Of a DNA stretch of 38,251 bases, positions 2,383-34,802 are shown in pieces. The stretch is from a virus: positions 1 to 38,251 of the IMG/VR virus record IMGVR_UViG_3300022562_000160. One strand, 5' to 3'. Position 1 is the stretch's first letter, and every line of letters begins with the position of its first letter. The position numbers were made by a program, and so were the translations under genes. The notes beneath the pieces were generated by a model, which saw only the letters and a list, made by a program, of their open reading frames with translations, had not been told where the DNA came from and made no database searches.

Positions 2383-2729
2383 TATTTAATCTCCCGCGCC
2401 TCAAAAATTGCGTCAATATCCATCAGGATGCCGACTTCGTTCGGATTTGGCCGCCAGCCGACCAGCCTTGCATAGCTCTCAACATCGCCAAACGTCAGCC
2501 TGTCACGGCCATAAAGCGTGTTATTGTTGATGCCAAATTTAAGCCTGCGATAGCGCCAATACAGGTCATTATCCGGCAGCTCAGGTTCATCGCGCTCTAG
2601 CTCTGGCGCCTTCTCGATTACGCCCATGGCCACCAGCGCCTCATTGTGCTGGTTGCTTATCGCGTCTACCTTTACCAGCTTTTGCTTGTCGCCCCACTCC
2701 CACGCGCAATAGTCGAGCAGGGCTTTCAC
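2382..2729 (-). CDS. Tail assembly chaperone, GT-like (T domain)
   Basis: This 115-residue frame opens at a GTG whose GTGA overlaps the stop of the preceding gene, directly after an A7-G run. In lambda-like phages the second frame of the chaperone pair is made mainly by -1 frameshifting from the first (G to GT). Position, size and the slippery site all fit that model. The GTG may not be used as a separate start. The protein is rich in charged residues and Trp/Tyr, and no enzymatic motif is visible. It abuts the tape measure gene, its expected client. Confidence 0.75.
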   Translation of the reverse strand: MKALLDYCAWEWGDKQKLVKVDAISNQHNEALVAMGVIEKAPELERDEPELPDNDLYWRYRRLKFGINNNTLYGRDRLTFGDVESYARLVGWRPNPNEVGILMDIDAIFEAREIK

Positions 2730-3154
2730 TTTTTTTGGTAGTTGGCCAACTGGGTGATGTAGGCTGCCCAGATTTGGTCGCCAAGACCTTTGAACGCTGC
2801 CAGCACCGCAGTAAGCTCGTCAGGCGAGAATGCGTTATCGAAGTCCCAGCCCTCAACCAGCTCGGCGGCTACGGCGTTTTGTAGCTTCACCAGCTCACGG
2901 CCATGGCGGATATTGTACTCGCCAAAGTCGCCAGCAGCCTCGGACTCGGCCAGCAGTTCGGCATTGGCGGCTTTGAACGAATCGTCAAACTGAGCCAGCA
3001 GGCGGCGATACTTGACCACCGCAATCTCCACATCTTCGGAATCAACTGGTTTCAGCACAATGTGGTGGCCGGACGGCGTGCCATCGCTGCGCAGCACCTC
3101 GAATTGACGGTCTTTGGCTTCTACTTTTGCGGCATATAATTCGTGGATATTCAT
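2726..3154 (-). CDS. Tail assembly chaperone, G-like
   Basis: This 142-residue acidic, helical protein starts at ATG 3154; the open frame extends further upstream, but into the promoter of the divergent operon. It lies between tail tube and tape measure, separated from the tube gene by an inserted opposite-strand cassette. It ends in two lysine codons on the slippery run. Siphophage G proteins of this size bind the tape measure and recruit tube subunits. The family call rests on position, size and the frameshift site rather than sequence motifs. Confidence 0.72.
   Translation of the reverse strand: MNIHELYAAKVEAKDRQFEVLRSDGTPSGHHIVLKPVDSEDVEIAVVKYRRLLAQFDDSFKAANAELLAESEAAGDFGEYNIRHGRELVKLQNAVAAELVEGWDFDNAFSPDELTAVLAAFKGLGDQIWAAYITQLANYQKK
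2729..2735 (-). promoter_or_regulatory. -1 programmed frameshift site (A AAA AAG) linking the chaperone frames
   Basis: In zero frame the upstream gene ends CAA AAA AAG TGA. The heptamer A AAA AAG is the classic slippery sequence read efficiently in bacteria by tRNA-Lys. A one-base slip back continues as AAA GTG AAA GCC into the downstream 115-residue frame, giving a fusion of about 257 residues. No stop intervenes. I did not find a convincing downstream pseudoknot by eye. Confidence 0.75.
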
Positions 3155-3207
3155 TGCGATTCTCGTTGTTTTTCGACTCCTGACATTGTAGCCGTCAATA
3201 AAATGTG

Positions 3208-3236
3208 TTGACAGTAAATAAAGTTGTTTATATGCT
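3208..3236 (+). promoter_or_regulatory. Sigma70-type promoter for the 3268-3916 cassette
   Basis: A perfect TTGACA (3208-3213) is followed by a 17-bp spacer and TATGCT (3231-3236), 31 bp ahead of the first start codon. The same TTGACA/TATGCT pair serves the other opposite-strand cassette at 7719-7746. Confidence 0.85.
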
Positions 3237-3267
3237 TGGCACATATTAACCAAAGAGGGAATGAAAG

Positions 3268-3663
3268 ATGATTGACGCAATCAAGACCAAGAAAAATCTG
3301 CTGCAGCAACTTCTAAAAAATGGCGACATCAGCGACGAAGCTTTCGGCAGGGAAGTTGACAAGCTGCTTGAGCAGCTTCTGTTTGACCCTGCTAGCGTGG
3401 TCGAGAAGTCGCAGGACAATGACCCAAACACCATCACCGTGAACGGTTTTAAAGTGCCGAAGCCGATGAGTGAGAAGCCTGATATTGAAAGCACCTATCA
3501 CACTGCGGACATTTATAACAAACTGCTGTCCAATCAATACATGTGGGGCGATAGTGACTTTGATTTCCTTCTTCTCTCCCGCAACATCTGCCACACCACC
3601 AAAGAAGCTGCCATAGCTCACGCTAAGGCCATGCTTGGCATTGACCCATGGGGTGATAAATGA
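3268..3663 (+). CDS. Hypothetical phage protein, first gene of an opposite-strand cassette
   Basis: This is a 131-residue protein with ribosome site GAGGG just ahead of ATG 3268. The N-terminal half is helical and charged. The C-terminal half contains a stretch ending HTTKEAAIAHAKAMLGIDP, which resembles the tail of many small accessory prophage proteins of unknown role; that resemblance is from memory. It is transcribed against the surrounding tail genes from its own promoter and overlaps the next gene by four bases. Likely an accessory (moron-type) gene expressed apart from the late operon. Function unknown. Confidence 0.8.
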   Translation: MIDAIKTKKNLLQQLLKNGDISDEAFGREVDKLLEQLLFDPASVVEKSQDNDPNTITVNGFKVPKPMSEKPDIESTYHTADIYNKLLSNQYMWGDSDFDFLLLSRNICHTTKEAAIAHAKAMLGIDPWGDK

Positions 3664-3890
3664 GCAACCTAACAATCTACTGCGGCGCACTGGTCGCATA
3701 CGAACAGCCGTCATACGCTGAGCGCAAATCCGGCGCAATGGTGGTCACTGTTACTGATGCAAATATTTTTAAAATTGTCGAGGAGGTTGGGACTGACACT
3801 CTACTTGACCACATCGACAATGAGGTGATTGCCACCTATCTGGAGCAACTTGGCTTGGTGGTGAGTGATGGTGATTTTGAGGAGGCGTAA
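3660..3890 (+). CDS. Hypothetical small acidic protein, second gene of the cassette
   Basis: A 76-residue protein that overlaps the preceding stop as ATGA, so it is translationally coupled. It is acidic in its C-terminal half, ending in two Glu and Ala, with no membrane segment or metal motif. The family is not recognised. It is followed by a possible eight-codon frame and then a strong terminator. Confidence 0.72.
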   Translation: MSNLTIYCGALVAYEQPSYAERKSGAMVVTVTDANIFKIVEEVGTDTLLDHIDNEVIATYLEQLGLVVSDGDFEEA

Positions 3891-3916
3891 TGCGTAACGA
3901 GGAAGATTGGTTCTAA
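3890..3916 (+). CDS. Possible eight-residue micro-ORF (MRNEEDWF)
   Basis: TAATG couples it to the previous gene, with a GGAGG ribosome site ending seven bases before its ATG. It stops immediately before the terminator. The short acidic-aromatic peptide could be chance; only its coupling and strong ribosome site argue for translation. Confidence 0.25.
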   Translation: MRNEEDWF

Positions 3917-3920
3917 ACAA

Positions 3921-3947
3921 AAGCCCCCTTTCGGGGGCTTCTCTTTT
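3921..3947. terminator. Bidirectional intrinsic terminator between cassette and tail tube gene
   Basis: An 8-bp stem AAGCCCCC/GGGGGCTT with a TTTC loop (3921-3940) is followed by CTCTTTTT on the plus strand. The minus strand reads the same hairpin followed by TTGTTT, just past the end of the tail tube gene. Confidence 0.85.
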
Positions 3948-5110
3948 TACGGGTAAACAATCCGCTGAATCGTGATTGACGATTGCATAGCGTTGCCGGT
4001 GGCCTGTCCTTCAATGCTCAGTGTTACAGCCTCTGGGCCGCCAATCTCAGGCGTTGCAGAGGTCATGCGCACACGGTGCAGCGTGAACGACATGGCGCCA
4101 GCCTTGCCAGTGAGCACGCTGGAAAACTCAGTCTCGGTTTCGTCAATAAACTTCTCCACCATAGCCAGGTCGTAAAGCTTGCCAGCCAGCGAGAAAGTAT
4201 TGTTGGCATTGCCGCGCTCAACAAATGCCACAGCCTTGTTACCAAGCTCAAACTGTGCGCTGGTTTCGTTGTCGTTGGTGATGGTAAAGGTGTCCACCAG
4301 CTCAAGCGGCGCGGAACCCTCAAACGCTGTCACATCCACAGATGCGAACGGGTCGGCGGTATAGCTCACGGTAAAGGTCGAGCCAGCAGGCGGCGCAGTC
4401 AGGATTTCTTGGCTAAGGCCGATGAACGGGAATGAGCCGGTCACCATGGCGTTAACTGCCTGCTCGATGGTAAAGCCTGTGAACTCAACACCGCGGGTGA
4501 TGATGTACGCATCTGGATTGCCGCACTTGCCCTTGAACCAGGTCAGGATTGACACCGATTTACACAGGTTTCCGGTTTGCAGCTTGTCTGCACCAAGGAA
4601 GCCGGTTGCAACTCCTGATTCGTCTGTGAGTTCGTGCTGAATTCCTGCGCCGGTGATAACCAGCGGTGTGACTGCGGTCACGATAAAAGGCAGCGCATTG
4701 TCTCCAGTGAGCTGCGGCATGTAGACCAAGTCGCCAACCTCGGCGATAGTGGTGAAGTCGCCAGCGGCGCGGGTGAAGGTTTTGGCGGCTGAGTCAACCG
4801 TTACCGACAAACCAGGCTCGCTGGTGCCAGCAACCCATGCGGATGTCATGGCAGCGGCCAGCAGGTCGTCTTGGCTGGACTGTGACAGCTCAATGGCGTA
4901 TTCGCCGGTAATCTGCTCGTTACCAGTGCGCACGCTGGTCTTTTCTCGGCTGCCGTTAAGCTCAGCCGATACCAGCGCGTCGCGTGTGATTGCAGGGACG
5001 CCGCCAGTATTGCGCAGCGGTGACCACGATGGACTTGCAGGGGTGACACCTGGCGTCAGTTCTGCGACATAAAATTGTGCGGTATTTGCCCCGCGAAATG
5101 GTTGCAACAT
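3947..5110 (-). CDS. Major tail tube protein
   Basis: This 387-residue beta-rich protein lies between the tail terminator and the chaperone pair, the usual place of the tube subunit. It has a GAGGT ribosome site ahead of ATG 5110. The N-terminus around NTAQFYVAELTPGVTP is typical of the larger tail-tube family of HK97-like siphophages; the extra length likely reflects an inserted Ig-like or surface domain. It polymerises into hexameric rings around the tape measure. Start and stop are unambiguous. Confidence 0.85.
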   Translation of the reverse strand: MLQPFRGANTAQFYVAELTPGVTPASPSWSPLRNTGGVPAITRDALVSAELNGSREKTSVRTGNEQITGEYAIELSQSSQDDLLAAAMTSAWVAGTSEPGLSVTVDSAAKTFTRAAGDFTTIAEVGDLVYMPQLTGDNALPFIVTAVTPLVITGAGIQHELTDESGVATGFLGADKLQTGNLCKSVSILTWFKGKCGNPDAYIITRGVEFTGFTIEQAVNAMVTGSFPFIGLSQEILTAPPAGSTFTVSYTADPFASVDVTAFEGSAPLELVDTFTITNDNETSAQFELGNKAVAFVERGNANNTFSLAGKLYDLAMVEKFIDETETEFSSVLTGKAGAMSFTLHRVRMTSATPEIGGPEAVTLSIEGQATGNAMQSSITIQRIVYP

Positions 5111-31332: not shown

Positions 31333-31705
31333 TACTGAAATCAGGCTCCTTGAACAGCGCGTTGCCAGCATAGAAACCAATATGTCAACCAAGAGTGACA
31401 TTGGAGTGCTAAACGGGAAAATTGACAGCCAGGCCGAAGGGTTTAAGGCCATAAAAGAGCTGGCTGAGAAAATAGACCGACTGGTTACTCAGAATGCCAA
31501 GCGCGAAGAAAATGACCGCCACATTGAGAAGGGCATGGAAAGAATTAACATGCGAATTGAGGCCCTTGAGAAATCAGACCATGAAACCAGGGTTTACATC
31601 GCCGCAGACAAGCCATACAAAGATATGCGCAGCGTAGCCATGAAGGCTGTGATTGGTTTTATTGTGGCAGGCATCCTTGCCGCAGCTTTTACTTTATCCC
31701 GATAA
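31322..31705 (+). CDS. Coiled-coil protein with C-terminal membrane anchor (XhlA-like)
   Basis: A 127-residue protein: coiled coil over residues 5-85 (RLLEQRVASIETNMSTKSDI...), then a single C-terminal transmembrane helix (AVIGFIVAGILAAAFTL). The plan resembles hemolysin XhlA-type phage lysis accessory proteins and small tail-anchored phage proteins. Its 3' end overlaps the convergent spanin gene by 17 bp. Confidence 0.68.
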   Translation: MASDTEIRLLEQRVASIETNMSTKSDIGVLNGKIDSQAEGFKAIKELAEKIDRLVTQNAKREENDRHIEKGMERINMRIEALEKSDHETRVYIAADKPYKDMRSVAMKAVIGFIVAGILAAAFTLSR

Positions 31706-32165
31706 CATAGTCCTGCAGTGCTTTCAGTTTTGCCTCACATCTGTCCGCGTCTCGCCCGATAGCTGCAACGCGCCTTGCAGCCTCTCTTGATAGCTCTGCG
31801 TATTGCTCTGTCCTTCCATCGCCCATTGTGGCGGCTCCGGTATCGCTTGGCACTCTATCGCAGGGCGAACGTTCGATGCGCACCCGCCAAGGGCGCTCAG
31901 CAAGCTCACGATTAAGGCGCTCGTTTTCTTCGTCTGCATGTCGGTATTGCTCCCAGGCTTTTGCCTCGCTTTGTGATAGGTCGCGCTCGGTTTCGTCTCG
32001 CTGCTTCATCAGCAGCTTTAGCGCATCGGCAGTTTTGCTGTTTATCTCGGCTCGCTCCACTTGCCAATCAGCCATGACAGAATCATGCCCGTAGTCGTAA
32101 CAGAGCCAACCAAATACAGCCATAAGTCCAGCGGCAATGGCCGCCTTAATCAGCGCGGGATTCAT
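31689..32165 (-). CDS. Rz: Inner-membrane spanin (Rz-like)
   Basis: A 158-residue protein from ATG 32165. One N-terminal transmembrane helix (LIKAAIAAGLMAVFGWLCY) is followed by a periplasmic coiled coil (ERAEINSKTADALKLLMKQRDETERDLSQSE...), the architecture of i-spanins that bridge to an outer-membrane lipoprotein in the last step of lysis. It overlaps the holin-like gene and carries the o-spanin gene inside it in another frame. Confidence 0.86.
   Translation of the reverse strand: MNPALIKAAIAAGLMAVFGWLCYDYGHDSVMADWQVERAEINSKTADALKLLMKQRDETERDLSQSEAKAWEQYRHADEENERLNRELAERPWRVRIERSPCDRVPSDTGAATMGDGRTEQYAELSREAARRVAAIGRDADRCEAKLKALQDYVIGIK
31724..31939 (-). CDS. Rz1: Outer-membrane spanin lipoprotein (Rz1-like), nested in Rz
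   Basis: A 71-residue frame entirely inside the Rz gene. MQTKKTSALIVSLLSALGGC is a signal sequence ending in a lipobox (A-L-G-G-C, Cys20), and the mature part contains IPEPPQWAM, giving the Pro-rich start typical of Rz1. The nested arrangement is the lambda Rz/Rz1 type. Confidence 0.86.
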   Translation of the reverse strand: MQTKKTSALIVSLLSALGGCASNVRPAIECQAIPEPPQWAMEGQSNTQSYQERLQGALQLSGETRTDVRQN

Positions 32166-32370
32166 ACTTGGCCTGCACAGCTTTGGAGAATCCACCAGCG
32201 CCAATAAGCGCCGTTCCGACAGTCATGGCTGTGTCAGCGTGTGACGCGCCAATAAACATCGCCACAGCGCCGCACACAGCCACCACGGAGCCTACGACCA
32301 TTGACACGGCGAAACCAAGCCGCATCATGGACAGCTTTCCTGTAGCGGTGCATTTTAGGAAGTCACGCAT
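32146..32370 (-). CDS. Holin-like small membrane protein
   Basis: A 74-residue protein from ATG 32370 with GAGGTGATT upstream. One clear transmembrane helix (VSMVVGSVVAVCGAVAMFI) and a second moderately hydrophobic Gly/Ala helix (AMTVGTALIGAGGF) before a charged C-terminus. Position between endolysin and spanins makes holin the best guess; no family signature is decisive. Confidence 0.62.
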   Translation of the reverse strand: MRDFLKCTATGKLSMMRLGFAVSMVVGSVVAVCGAVAMFIGASHADTAMTVGTALIGAGGFSKAVQAKYESRAD

Positions 32371-32372
32371 AA

Positions 32373-32882
32373 TCACCTCAACTCGTAATGATTGCCATCG
32401 TTGAATTTATTTGATTTTGACATATTGTCTGCTGCAGGAAGATACTGAAGGTTTTCTATTACGTGTAAACCACATACCAAAACACCCCTTATTGGAATTA
32501 CATGATCCACATGAAACCCATCTGGCTTTTCATTATAAAACTCTCTTATCAATTCCTTGTCAGCCCATGCTGGCGTAGCCTTCCTTAGCCTTGACCTGTA
32601 TATGCATTTGTCCTTCTTTTTGGTTTTTCTCTTGATTTCACGATTGCACCCATCGCAATATGTGTGACCTTTAGGCTTATCTGCATCGCATACCCTGCAC
32701 TTAGTCAGACCCCTTCTTCTTCTTTGGCTCTCCAGCTCTGAGCTCATGTTTTCATTTCTATGCTCTTTCTTGCACACCTTGCAGAAACTGGAAAGCCACC
32801 CCCTAGCTTTGTTCCTGTAAAAAAAGAACTCACTAGTTTTTGGCTTTTCCTCCCTGCATCTTACGCAAATTTTTGTGTCCAT
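32373..32882 (-). CDS. HNH homing-type endonuclease inserted in the lysis cassette
   Basis: A 169-residue protein. N-terminal zinc ribbon CVRCREEKPKTSEFFFYRN with CKVC, a second Cys cluster (CRVCDADKPKGHTYCDGC), then the catalytic HNH part FHVDHVIPIRGVLVCGLHVIENLQYLPAADNMSKSNK. The last eight residues DGNHYELR nearly repeat the end of the neighbouring endolysin (DGNHYELK). It separates endolysin from holin, which are usually adjacent. Two of the rare GATC sites lie in HNH genes, one here. Confidence 0.88.
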   Translation of the reverse strand: MDTKICVRCREEKPKTSEFFFYRNKARGWLSSFCKVCKKEHRNENMSSELESQRRRRGLTKCRVCDADKPKGHTYCDGCNREIKRKTKKKDKCIYRSRLRKATPAWADKELIREFYNEKPDGFHVDHVIPIRGVLVCGLHVIENLQYLPAADNMSKSNKFNDGNHYELR

Positions 32883-32908
32883 ATAGCCTCCACTTTATGA
32901 TGGAAACC

Positions 32909-32914
32909 ATTATA
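32909..32914 (-). promoter_or_regulatory. Possible local -10 for the HNH gene
   Basis: A perfect TATAAT on the minus strand 27 bp before the HNH start; no good -35 at proper spacing. TCCAT and ATGGA around the GGAGG ribosome site could form a short 5-bp hairpin that includes the start codon. Confidence 0.3.
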
Positions 32915-32922
32915 AACACATG

Positions 32923-33255
32923 TTACTTCAATTCATAGTGATTGCCGTCAGCATTCTTGAACCTGCCACCCCACCTGCACAGTTCGTGCTGCTGCTCCCA
33001 CCACTCACCAAGCTCTCTGTGCGCCTCTGTGTTGGCAAGAAACTGCCCGCCTTTGAACAGATTAAGGTCGATAGCGCATTTCAGCTTGTGATTGGAATTG
33101 GCTGAGCCGTAGCCGACCTTCTGGCCAAGCTCGCCATGAGCCCGTGGGTCACGGAATAAATCGCCTCCCCTTACCTCAAAGCCAAGACTGTGCGCCTTGT
33201 CAATGAGGCGAGGAAGCAGTCTCATAAATAGCTCTTGCTTCTCGCCTAGTTTCAT
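32923..33255 (-). CDS. Endolysin, M15 L-alanyl-D-glutamate peptidase type
   Basis: A 110-residue peptidase of the VanY/M15 family. The zinc motif is NSNHKLKCAIDLNLF (S-x-H-x6-D form) near residues 53-67, and the distal EAHRELGEWWEQ supplies the second His/Glu region. Similar to T5-like lysis peptidases but short. It cleaves peptidoglycan cross-bridges. It is ATGA-coupled to the tail fibre gene; its end DGNHYELK is echoed at the end of the downstream HNH protein. Confidence 0.9.
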   Translation of the reverse strand: MKLGEKQELFMRLLPRLIDKAHSLGFEVRGGDLFRDPRAHGELGQKVGYGSANSNHKLKCAIDLNLFKGGQFLANTEAHRELGEWWEQQHELCRWGGRFKNADGNHYELK

Positions 33256-34802
33256 AAAGACCTACTATCCCAATCAACGGAAAAAGAGAATCTACCCTGC
33301 CCACCGAGCCCGCCGTCATAGGTCAAAGTTAAATCGAGTATACCGCCATTAAGCGACAGGTCTGCATGTAATTGAGGCTCCAAGTTGTCCACGCCGATGA
33401 CCTGCGTGGTTATTGCCGTGCCGTCCGACTGAAAAGCGATGTGTCTGAATCCTGCTGTAGTTGCGCTACCAGAGCCAACTGCCATTAAACGCAATGTGCC
33501 AGCTAAGATCTGGCCGCTGGCCGCCAGTCTAAACACCTGAGAACCAGCAGTCGGTAACGATAGGTTTCTGCTGACTGAGTGATTACCGTTACCGGCCTGA
33601 ATATCTGTTACGTTGGTTGAATATAATTTTCTGCCGCCCCATGTAACACCGTTTGCATCTATTTTGCCAAGCGTGTTACCGGATGCGCTATCAGATATAG
33701 TTACGTCATCAACGTTCGGTGTTAGTCGAAGATATACGTTACCTGTTGACCTCCTCCTTATCTCAACGTATTGATTAAACTGCACAGGCAGCGCCGGGAA
33801 TGTGACTGGGGTATCAGTACGATTTGACGGAATGGACATTGCAGCGTCAAACGCATAAACGTCATCAGCAGGAGACAGACCGCCACCACCTGACCCGTCC
33901 TTCTTTGTGCCGTCATTGCGACTTGGCTTTGTATCAAATAGAAGCTGGAACGCCTCATCTTGATAGACAGACCTTCCGCGCAACAGGAAATAGTCGCTAT
34001 ACAAGTAAGTCCTAAAGTCTATGTCGTTTTCACCGCCGAAAGTCCCCGCCGTACACAAAACAGCGTGACTATCTCGCCGTATGTCCGGTGGTAATTTCAT
34101 GACGTGCGCATCACCACCCTGGGTTCCATCGGCGAAAGAAACTATTTGCAAGTCATCAACCCAGTTATAAATCTGGAGAAAATTGCGACCTCGGATTGAG
34201 TCGTAACCGATACTAAACTTACCCAATTCTGGCTCGATTTGTAACCCGTTATTCAAGTCTATATAGCCATCAGATACAGAGCCAGTGCCACCAGCAACGA
34301 CCCGACCAGTGGCGCCTATCCCGTCAGAAGCGGTGACCTTACCGCGCCACGCCACCCTAGAACCGACTGGCAGAAGCTCTGCACCTAACTTCATCTCATC
34401 AACAGTTGCAAACGTCCTGACATACACTTGATCTAAATCGCTAGGCTCAGCAAGACCACTCAACTGTTGCAGCGAGCCAACATGCACCACCTGATAATCT
34501 GGCGCGCTTGGCACTGTTCCGGCTGACACAACAACGGGGAATGGCGAAGCCCCAACATAAATCCACTGCGTATTGCTGGCATCAATGGCGAAGTCGGTAT
34601 TTTTTGTGAAAGTCACGCCGTCAGCAAATTTGCCGACATATGACCAATCAATATCGTTGATTGTCGCTGGCAGCGTTTTCTGCACTTGGCCGGTCACTGC
34701 GTTGGTGGCGTAGTCACCGGTACGGCCGGTAATCACATCAACGTGGAACTTGTTGTGCTTCTTGGTTTCTTCGAGGTCTGCGACCGTAATAACATCACTC
34801 AT
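33252..34802 (-). CDS. Tail fibre / receptor-binding protein
   Basis: A 516-residue beta-rich protein, ATGA-coupled to the J-like gene. The N-terminal part contains variable repeat-like segments, a Gly-rich hinge near 306-310 (GSGGGG), and the C-terminal 170 residues look like a jelly-roll or trimeric fibre head (ending RFSFSVDWDSRSL). Position between tip protein and endolysin supports a side or central fibre. Two of the few GATC sites in the genome are here, consistent with recent exchange of the gene. Confidence 0.78.
   Translation of the reverse strand: MSDVITVADLEETKKHNKFHVDVITGRTGDYATNAVTGQVQKTLPATINDIDWSYVGKFADGVTFTKNTDFAIDASNTQWIYVGASPFPVVVSAGTVPSAPDYQVVHVGSLQQLSGLAEPSDLDQVYVRTFATVDEMKLGAELLPVGSRVAWRGKVTASDGIGATGRVVAGGTGSVSDGYIDLNNGLQIEPELGKFSIGYDSIRGRNFLQIYNWVDDLQIVSFADGTQGGDAHVMKLPPDIRRDSHAVLCTAGTFGGENDIDFRTYLYSDYFLLRGRSVYQDEAFQLLFDTKPSRNDGTKKDGSGGGGLSPADDVYAFDAAMSIPSNRTDTPVTFPALPVQFNQYVEIRRRSTGNVYLRLTPNVDDVTISDSASGNTLGKIDANGVTWGGRKLYSTNVTDIQAGNGNHSVSRNLSLPTAGSQVFRLAASGQILAGTLRLMAVGSGSATTAGFRHIAFQSDGTAITTQVIGVDNLEPQLHADLSLNGGILDLTLTYDGGLGGQGRFSFSVDWDSRSL

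Follow-up and report, generated by a model that had tools for sequence, protein, structure and literature searches.

We find that an HNH gene in a phage lysis region lies between two versions of the end of the adjacent endolysin gene, and we conclude that it is very probably a free-standing element of homing type, which enters genes at their 3′ ends, rescues its target and leaves the native end downstream. In the window, by which we mean the whole 38,251-nt stretch of viral DNA analysed here, the insertion falls within the 3′ coding end of the endolysin gene, with a replacement end upstream of the HNH body, the native end downstream of it and no intron signature. Four further phage cases suggest a recurring route by which selfish genes enter essential genes without breaking them.

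An HNH reading frame ends in a second version of the endolysin end

The endolysin of this lysis region (Table 1) meets both marks of a peptidase M15, a PF13539 match above cut-off and an invariant H...D...H site. Residues H56, D63 and H106 are invariant in an alignment with 14 relatives; from knowledge of the family we take them to be the M15 zinc ligands, H106 being the presumed third. The downstream holin-like ORF has only a weak, sub-threshold Pfam holin match.

Table 1. Coordinates of the lysis region and of the sequence elements discussed in the text.
Feature	Position in window	Strand	Remarks
Region tabulated	31689-34802	-	All features on the minus strand
Structural gene	33252-34802	-	
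M15-family endolysin, target gene	32923-33255	-	110 aa; Pfam PF13539, E=1.5e-6, over cut-off
Gap between endolysin and HNH ORF			40 nt
HNH endonuclease ORF	32373-32882	-	169 aa; in-frame fusion to the displaced native endolysin end
Short holin-like ORF	32146-32376	-	GTG start overlapping the HNH stop codon (ORF table)
Rz-like spanin	31689-32204	-	Lysis cassette context; Pfam PF03245, E=3.5e-6
Captured C-terminal HNH tail, FNDGNHYELR and stop	32373-32405	-	Relatives end soon after NKF
Replacement endolysin end, codons 105-110 and stop (NHYELK)	32923-32943	-	Minimum extent; recoded relative to the uninterrupted allele
L007-identical stretch (23/23), CATTACGAGTTGAGGTGATTATG	32368-32390	-	Includes stop codon, GAGG Shine-Dalgarno-like stretch and the next gene's start
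Inferred inserted unit: replacement end, spacer and HNH body	32391-32943	-	~553 nt; by analogy with the 568-nt insert of L125

The HNH protein belongs by sequence match (PHROG 1035, 'endonuclease VII', E=5e-15) and by its conserved D-H...N...N/K core to the PHROG 1035 group; it also matches PHROG 26577 (E=2e-15), and its Pfam HNH match is below threshold. The VDH...N..N core is invariant in 34 relatives (D126, H127, N144, N153, K156). An AlphaFold model of the protein (mean pLDDT 80.7, pTM 0.47) found no structural counterpart in the PDB at E<=0.001, with HNH/bba-Me nucleases such as Hpy99I among the weak matches, and a PDB sequence search returned no match for either the endolysin or the HNH protein.

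The endolysin gene terminates in RFKNADGNHYELK (TTC AAG AAT GCT GAC GGC AAT CAC TAT GAA TTG AAG TAA) and the HNH ORF in NKFNDGNHYELR (TTC AAC GAT GGC AAT CAT TAC GAG TTG AGG TGA). A sequence-only reading of this DNA had noted that the proteins end DGNHYELK and DGNHYELR, respectively, and that about half of the shared codons differ, mostly synonymously. Both statements hold: 6 of the 9 shared codons differ (endolysin/HNH: GAC/GAT, GGC/GGC, AAT/AAT, CAC/CAT, TAT/TAC, GAA/GAG, TTG/TTG, AAG/AGG, TAA/TGA), and K/R is the sole amino-acid change.

HNH relatives usually stop 0-5 residues past the N-K-F motif without a fused tail, and the DGNHYELR tail is not a trait of the HNH family. The same tail on HNH genes away from any endolysin would have refuted the proposed origin; the degenerate pattern KxNKFxDGNH(Y/F) had no match among 2.9 million viral contigs. 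With disorder predicted for it (pLDDT < 50 at residues 164-169), the tail is probably tolerated rather than needed. At window positions 32391-32405, and in five cases altogether, the NK(F/Y) motif at the HNH end, or what corresponds to it, tends to fall opposite a target codon for an aromatic residue (RF, IF, LY, EQF), possibly reflecting microhomology or the original point of capture.

The HNH tail matches the end of an uninterrupted endolysin gene

Endolysin relatives are encoded at 80 loci. The closest, L007, is a 38,243-nt contig whose endolysin is 96% identical to that of the window and which has no HNH gene. Its endolysin gene ends AACCATTACGAGTTGAGGTGATTATG (AAC CAT TAC GAG TTG AGG TGA TT ATG), and the last 23 bases of this end match 23 nt of the HNH tail and following bases with 0 mismatches, whereas the window endolysin end, CACTATGAATTGAAGTAA, is unlike it. 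Between the window endolysin and L007 there are 26 mismatches over codons 1-91 and none over codons 92-104, and the final 7 codons hold 6; the departure is thus abrupt from codon 105, the change falling between N105 and H106. On these alignments, the match of L007 to the HNH tail and the departure of the endolysin at codon 105 identify the HNH tail as the native end, displaced, and show that the end now borne by the endolysin came with the insert. Counting against this, the bases directly before the 23-nt match differ, being TTCAACGATGGCAAT in the HNH tail and TTCAAGAATGCTGACGGCAAC in L007. Because L007 is only ~90% identical and has different downstream genes, the boundaries of the window insert are approximate by some nucleotides.

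The comparison called for by the sequence-only reading, that of an uninterrupted endolysin-holin junction in a relative, is available in L007, and the displaced end does match the intact gene, as that reading had anticipated. The holin-like ORF of the window retains its translation start, which in the normal arrangement overlaps the end of the endolysin gene, and the junction, GAGGTGATTATG, is identical in L007. The replacement end restores the invariant His106, the presumed third zinc ligand. Because H106 lies beyond the point of change, we infer that an insertion lacking a replacement end should kill the enzyme.

As a control, the tail-to-tail comparison was extended to 783 pairs of ordinary neighbours at the same loci. 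Three reached a score of 44: L148, which is itself an HNH case, and two with other likely causes, L019, set aside as paralogous neighbours judging by their matching ends, and L267, set aside for a repeat-like HPERP stretch. The shared tail in the window is not due to chance, because HNH relatives normally lack it, the search of 2.9 million contigs found it nowhere else, 23 nt of it and the following bases match L007, and so few (3/783) control pairs scored as high.

A near-identical empty allele reveals a clean insertion

When every HNH ORF was compared, end against end, with the gene upstream of it, L125 emerged, in which the HNH ORF ends YQVQEGADYLNYLRSKK and the upstream phosphoesterase-like gene ends WEVESGADYLNYLRSKK. 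Aligned with L171, a near-identical empty allele, L125 has 1 mismatch in the 1,031-nt gene body, 14 mismatches in the last 49 nt of the phosphoesterase-like gene, and 0 mismatches in the 688 nt that comprise the HNH tail and downstream DNA. The insert is clean, with no target duplication and a 1-nt ambiguity, and its 568 nt hold the replacement end, an ATGA start overlap and the HNH body. Among 80 relatives of the phosphoesterase-like gene the recovered ends are uninterrupted, except for L170, which is the L125 contig itself.

Over the last 12 codons, the replacement and native ends of L125 differ at 8 of 36 nt and at 0 of 12 residues. By contrast, distinct natural ends that differ by at least 8 nt also differ by 2-4 residues in every instance (7/7), a pattern that, in this small sample, favours selection keeping the protein while changing the DNA.

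Two other contigs, L173 and L174, carry a different gene past the phosphoesterase-like gene, starting (MIPFPNKKYNIIYAD...) at the junction of the L125 insert; this start presumably resembles that of an MT-A70-type methyltransferase. Because a different gene occupies the same junction, the site may be an insertion hotspot.

Further targets include a terminase, a head gene and a large predicted gene

In L124, the target is a terminase with the replacement end EVRLSGGGSSGQSAVTGY followed by a stop, inside which the HNH ORF begins. The displaced end after the HNH gene, IRESGYGKSGVSSVTGY and stop, overlaps the start of the portal gene; the uninterrupted terminase of L269 ends LRESGYGRSGVSTTTGY and stop and overlaps the portal start likewise. 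Because this end codes for the portal N-terminus, the native end must remain.

The cultured Aeromonas phage 62AhydR11PP (MH179474) has a head gene followed by an HNH gene and then by the native end, SKSVLPF and stop, with the native terminator. Relative to vB_AsaM-56, which has no insert there, its head gene is ~90% identical over the first 420 nt and ~60% over the last 357, and the displaced end and terminator are 95% identical over 60 nt. With ~357 nt replaced and only ~70% protein identity to Aeromonas relatives, the tract is long and divergent in amino acids, and to judge by this it looks like the contribution of a divergent donor rather than purposeful recoding.

In L148, an HNH gene of another subfamily ends HTTLDPYQSEVDPG behind a large predicted gene of 705 aa that ends YATIDVYQSGDDPG; no uninterrupted relative was compared. 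Two HNH genes converge in this contig, 2729-3208 (+) and 3184-3906 (-); their overlap coincides exactly with the displaced gene end, and the tail of the plus-strand gene is the antisense of SEVDPG.

Presence or absence at a fixed site, the mark of a homing gene, is seen in the pairs window/L007, L125/L171, L124/L269 and 62AhydR11PP/vB_AsaM-56. The same pairs bear out the central suggestion of the earlier reading, that the element inserted in the last codons of its target, brought its own replacement end and captured the native one.

Duplicated ends are found at a minority of HNH loci

Clear duplicated ends occur at a few per cent of the ~100 distinct HNH loci surveyed. With ~100 other HNH loci of the family lacking such a duplication, the arrangement is not universal; old cases may have decayed. 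At the nucleotide level the survey was clear only for L125 and the window, and the translated survey added L124. The signal in L144 was an overlap artefact, and L097, although above background, has GC-rich hairpin/poly-T (terminator-like) sequence on both sides. N-terminal captures were sought and none was convincing. A scan of genome contigs yielded only 10 distant HNH loci, whose gene ends gave no match in the survey.

Two other arrangements were seen among the related contigs. In L082, L083, L085 and L086 (positions 3001-3066), the endolysin is reduced to its first 22 codons (MKLGEKQELFMRLLPRLIDKAH), followed by GVIKS and a stop, which from its sequence may be a truncated remnant or a recombination junction. 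L082 has an intact DNA polymerase gene of 688 aa; in L085 (3106-5642, minus strand) this gene is interrupted by an HNH-type ORF (3641-4210), and no Rfam intron was detected.

A proposed mechanism and its alternatives

We propose that the HNH nuclease would cut an endolysin allele that lacks the HNH gene, close to the conserved codons for DGNHY, an inference for which there are no cleavage data, and that the break would be repaired from an HNH-carrying genome, inferred likewise without mobility data. With the left exchange point inside the target gene, the donor-coded, recoded end would enter; this exchange appears short in the window, L125 and L124, and would have reached ~357 nt in 62AhydR11PP. 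With the right exchange point inside the captured end, the recipient's own sequence would be kept there, so that the upstream end would be donor-like and the downstream end recipient-like. In the window the HNH reading frame runs into the displaced end, giving DGNHYELR. The native end stays useful, because it holds the start signals of the following gene in the window, L125 and L124, and a terminator in 62AhydR11PP. The duplicated ends, the identity of the native copy and the clean L125 insertion are observed, while cleavage, its site and homing are inferred from sequence comparison. A search of viral contigs by exact 8-mers found no close relative and no second copy of the window HNH gene, and mobility of this lineage is therefore not seen directly.

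One alternative keeps both the insertion and the displaced end and departs from this proposal only on selected recoding: the recoded end would be a mere co-converted flank from a divergent donor, and the fusion of the HNH frame to the displaced end incidental. The long, divergent tract of 62AhydR11PP is what such a process would leave, and coconversion of flanks is standard in T4 homing (PMC2988022). The L125 replacement weighs on the other side, with 8 changed nucleotides and no changed residue where the seven natural ends at least as distant differ by 2-4 residues. We regard co-conversion as a serious contender, only slightly short of an even chance. It is improbable, on the other hand, that the HNH gene is an ordinary intergenic moron beside a tandem duplication of the endolysin end that later drifted, with no mobility by cutting. 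Most members of the HNH family are indeed intergenic and without a duplicated end, but in L125 the differing copy is the upstream one and its surroundings are near-identical to the empty allele; the difference was therefore brought by the insert rather than built up on the spot. Drift after duplication would also have to account for five different target genes, always affected at the 3′ end and always beside an HNH gene.

We give very little credence to a self-splicing intron or intein, with the endolysin completed by splicing to the displaced end. HNH genes are often found in introns and inteins, but this endolysin is complete and closes with a stop codon of its own ahead of the insert, and splicing would duplicate or truncate its end. 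No match to Rfam group I or II introns, or to any other known structured RNA, was found in window positions 31500-34000 or in L125 and L124; with no such match and a target ORF complete before the insert, classification as a group I intron with a homing endonuclease was rejected. An assembly chimera of two related phages has to be considered, given the metagenomic origin of the window contig and of most related loci, but the same structure, with clean in-frame junctions, recurs in unrelated contigs and in a deposited cultured-phage genome, leaving hardly any room for this explanation.

Discussion

The invasion of 3′ gene ends that we propose has its counterpart in fungal mitochondria, where mobile endonuclease ORFs (mORFs) are known from Allomyces atp6 and from Glomus atp6, atp9, cox2 and nad3, and where endonuclease-driven mobility has been demonstrated (PMC3630166). 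The defining arrangement, a replacement 3′ end upstream of the nuclease ORF and a displaced native end that matches uninterrupted relatives, is met here. In both systems an endonuclease ORF lies at the 3′ end of an essential gene completed by an inserted foreign C-terminus, the displaced native C-terminus downstream matches an uninterrupted relative, and nucleotide divergence far exceeds protein divergence (PMC3630166). The mitochondrial elements encode LAGLIDADG or GIY-YIG nucleases, with replacement ends of 51-238 nt in the Glomus-type cases (PMC3630166), whereas the phage cases involve HNH nucleases in tailed phages, replacement ends that range from ~20 to ~357 nt and, in three of them (window, L125, L148), a nuclease frame that continues into the displaced end.

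Free-standing HNH homing genes are represented by the T4 mob genes (PMC2988022), and precise HNH insertions between genes, near lysin genes, are reported in Cluster J mycobacteriophages (PMC3706429). As far as the accessible portions of these two reports go, both share with our cases a stand-alone HNH gene by an essential gene and clean presence or absence between relatives, but their HNH genes are intergenic, and no replacement end or captured native end is described. A further parallel is HomeR, an engineered home-and-rescue gene drive that uses Cas9 in flies; it targets an essential gene for cutting at its 3′ coding end and supplies a re-coded version of that end as rescue (PMC7968924). HomeR is man-made, whereas the phage element is natural and selected recoding in it is undemonstrated. 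We can offer only tentatively, as somewhat doubtful on present evidence, the broader idea that natural home-and-rescue drives are widespread among phage HNH genes, invading the conserved catalytic 3′ ends of essential genes with a synonymously recoded end selected both to complete the target protein and to escape the nuclease. The architecture is thus known from fungal mitochondria, and the phage HNH version is without precedent in the open literature searched; subscription papers and preprints were outside that search, and a precedent is not excluded.

The usual view is that a stand-alone phage homing gene requires either a harmless intergenic site or the shelter of an intron or intein. Bringing along a replacement gene end is a third way into a conserved coding site. 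It leaves a simple mark that can be searched for, a second copy of the upstream gene's end located at or past the nuclease gene's end, and through this mark HNH genes not otherwise assigned can be traced to their target and approximate site of insertion. It explains, in addition, some of the mosaicism of phage gene ends, such as that of the 62AhydR11PP head gene. The element is also a natural counterpart of engineered home-and-rescue drives, and selected recoding thereby becomes directly testable.
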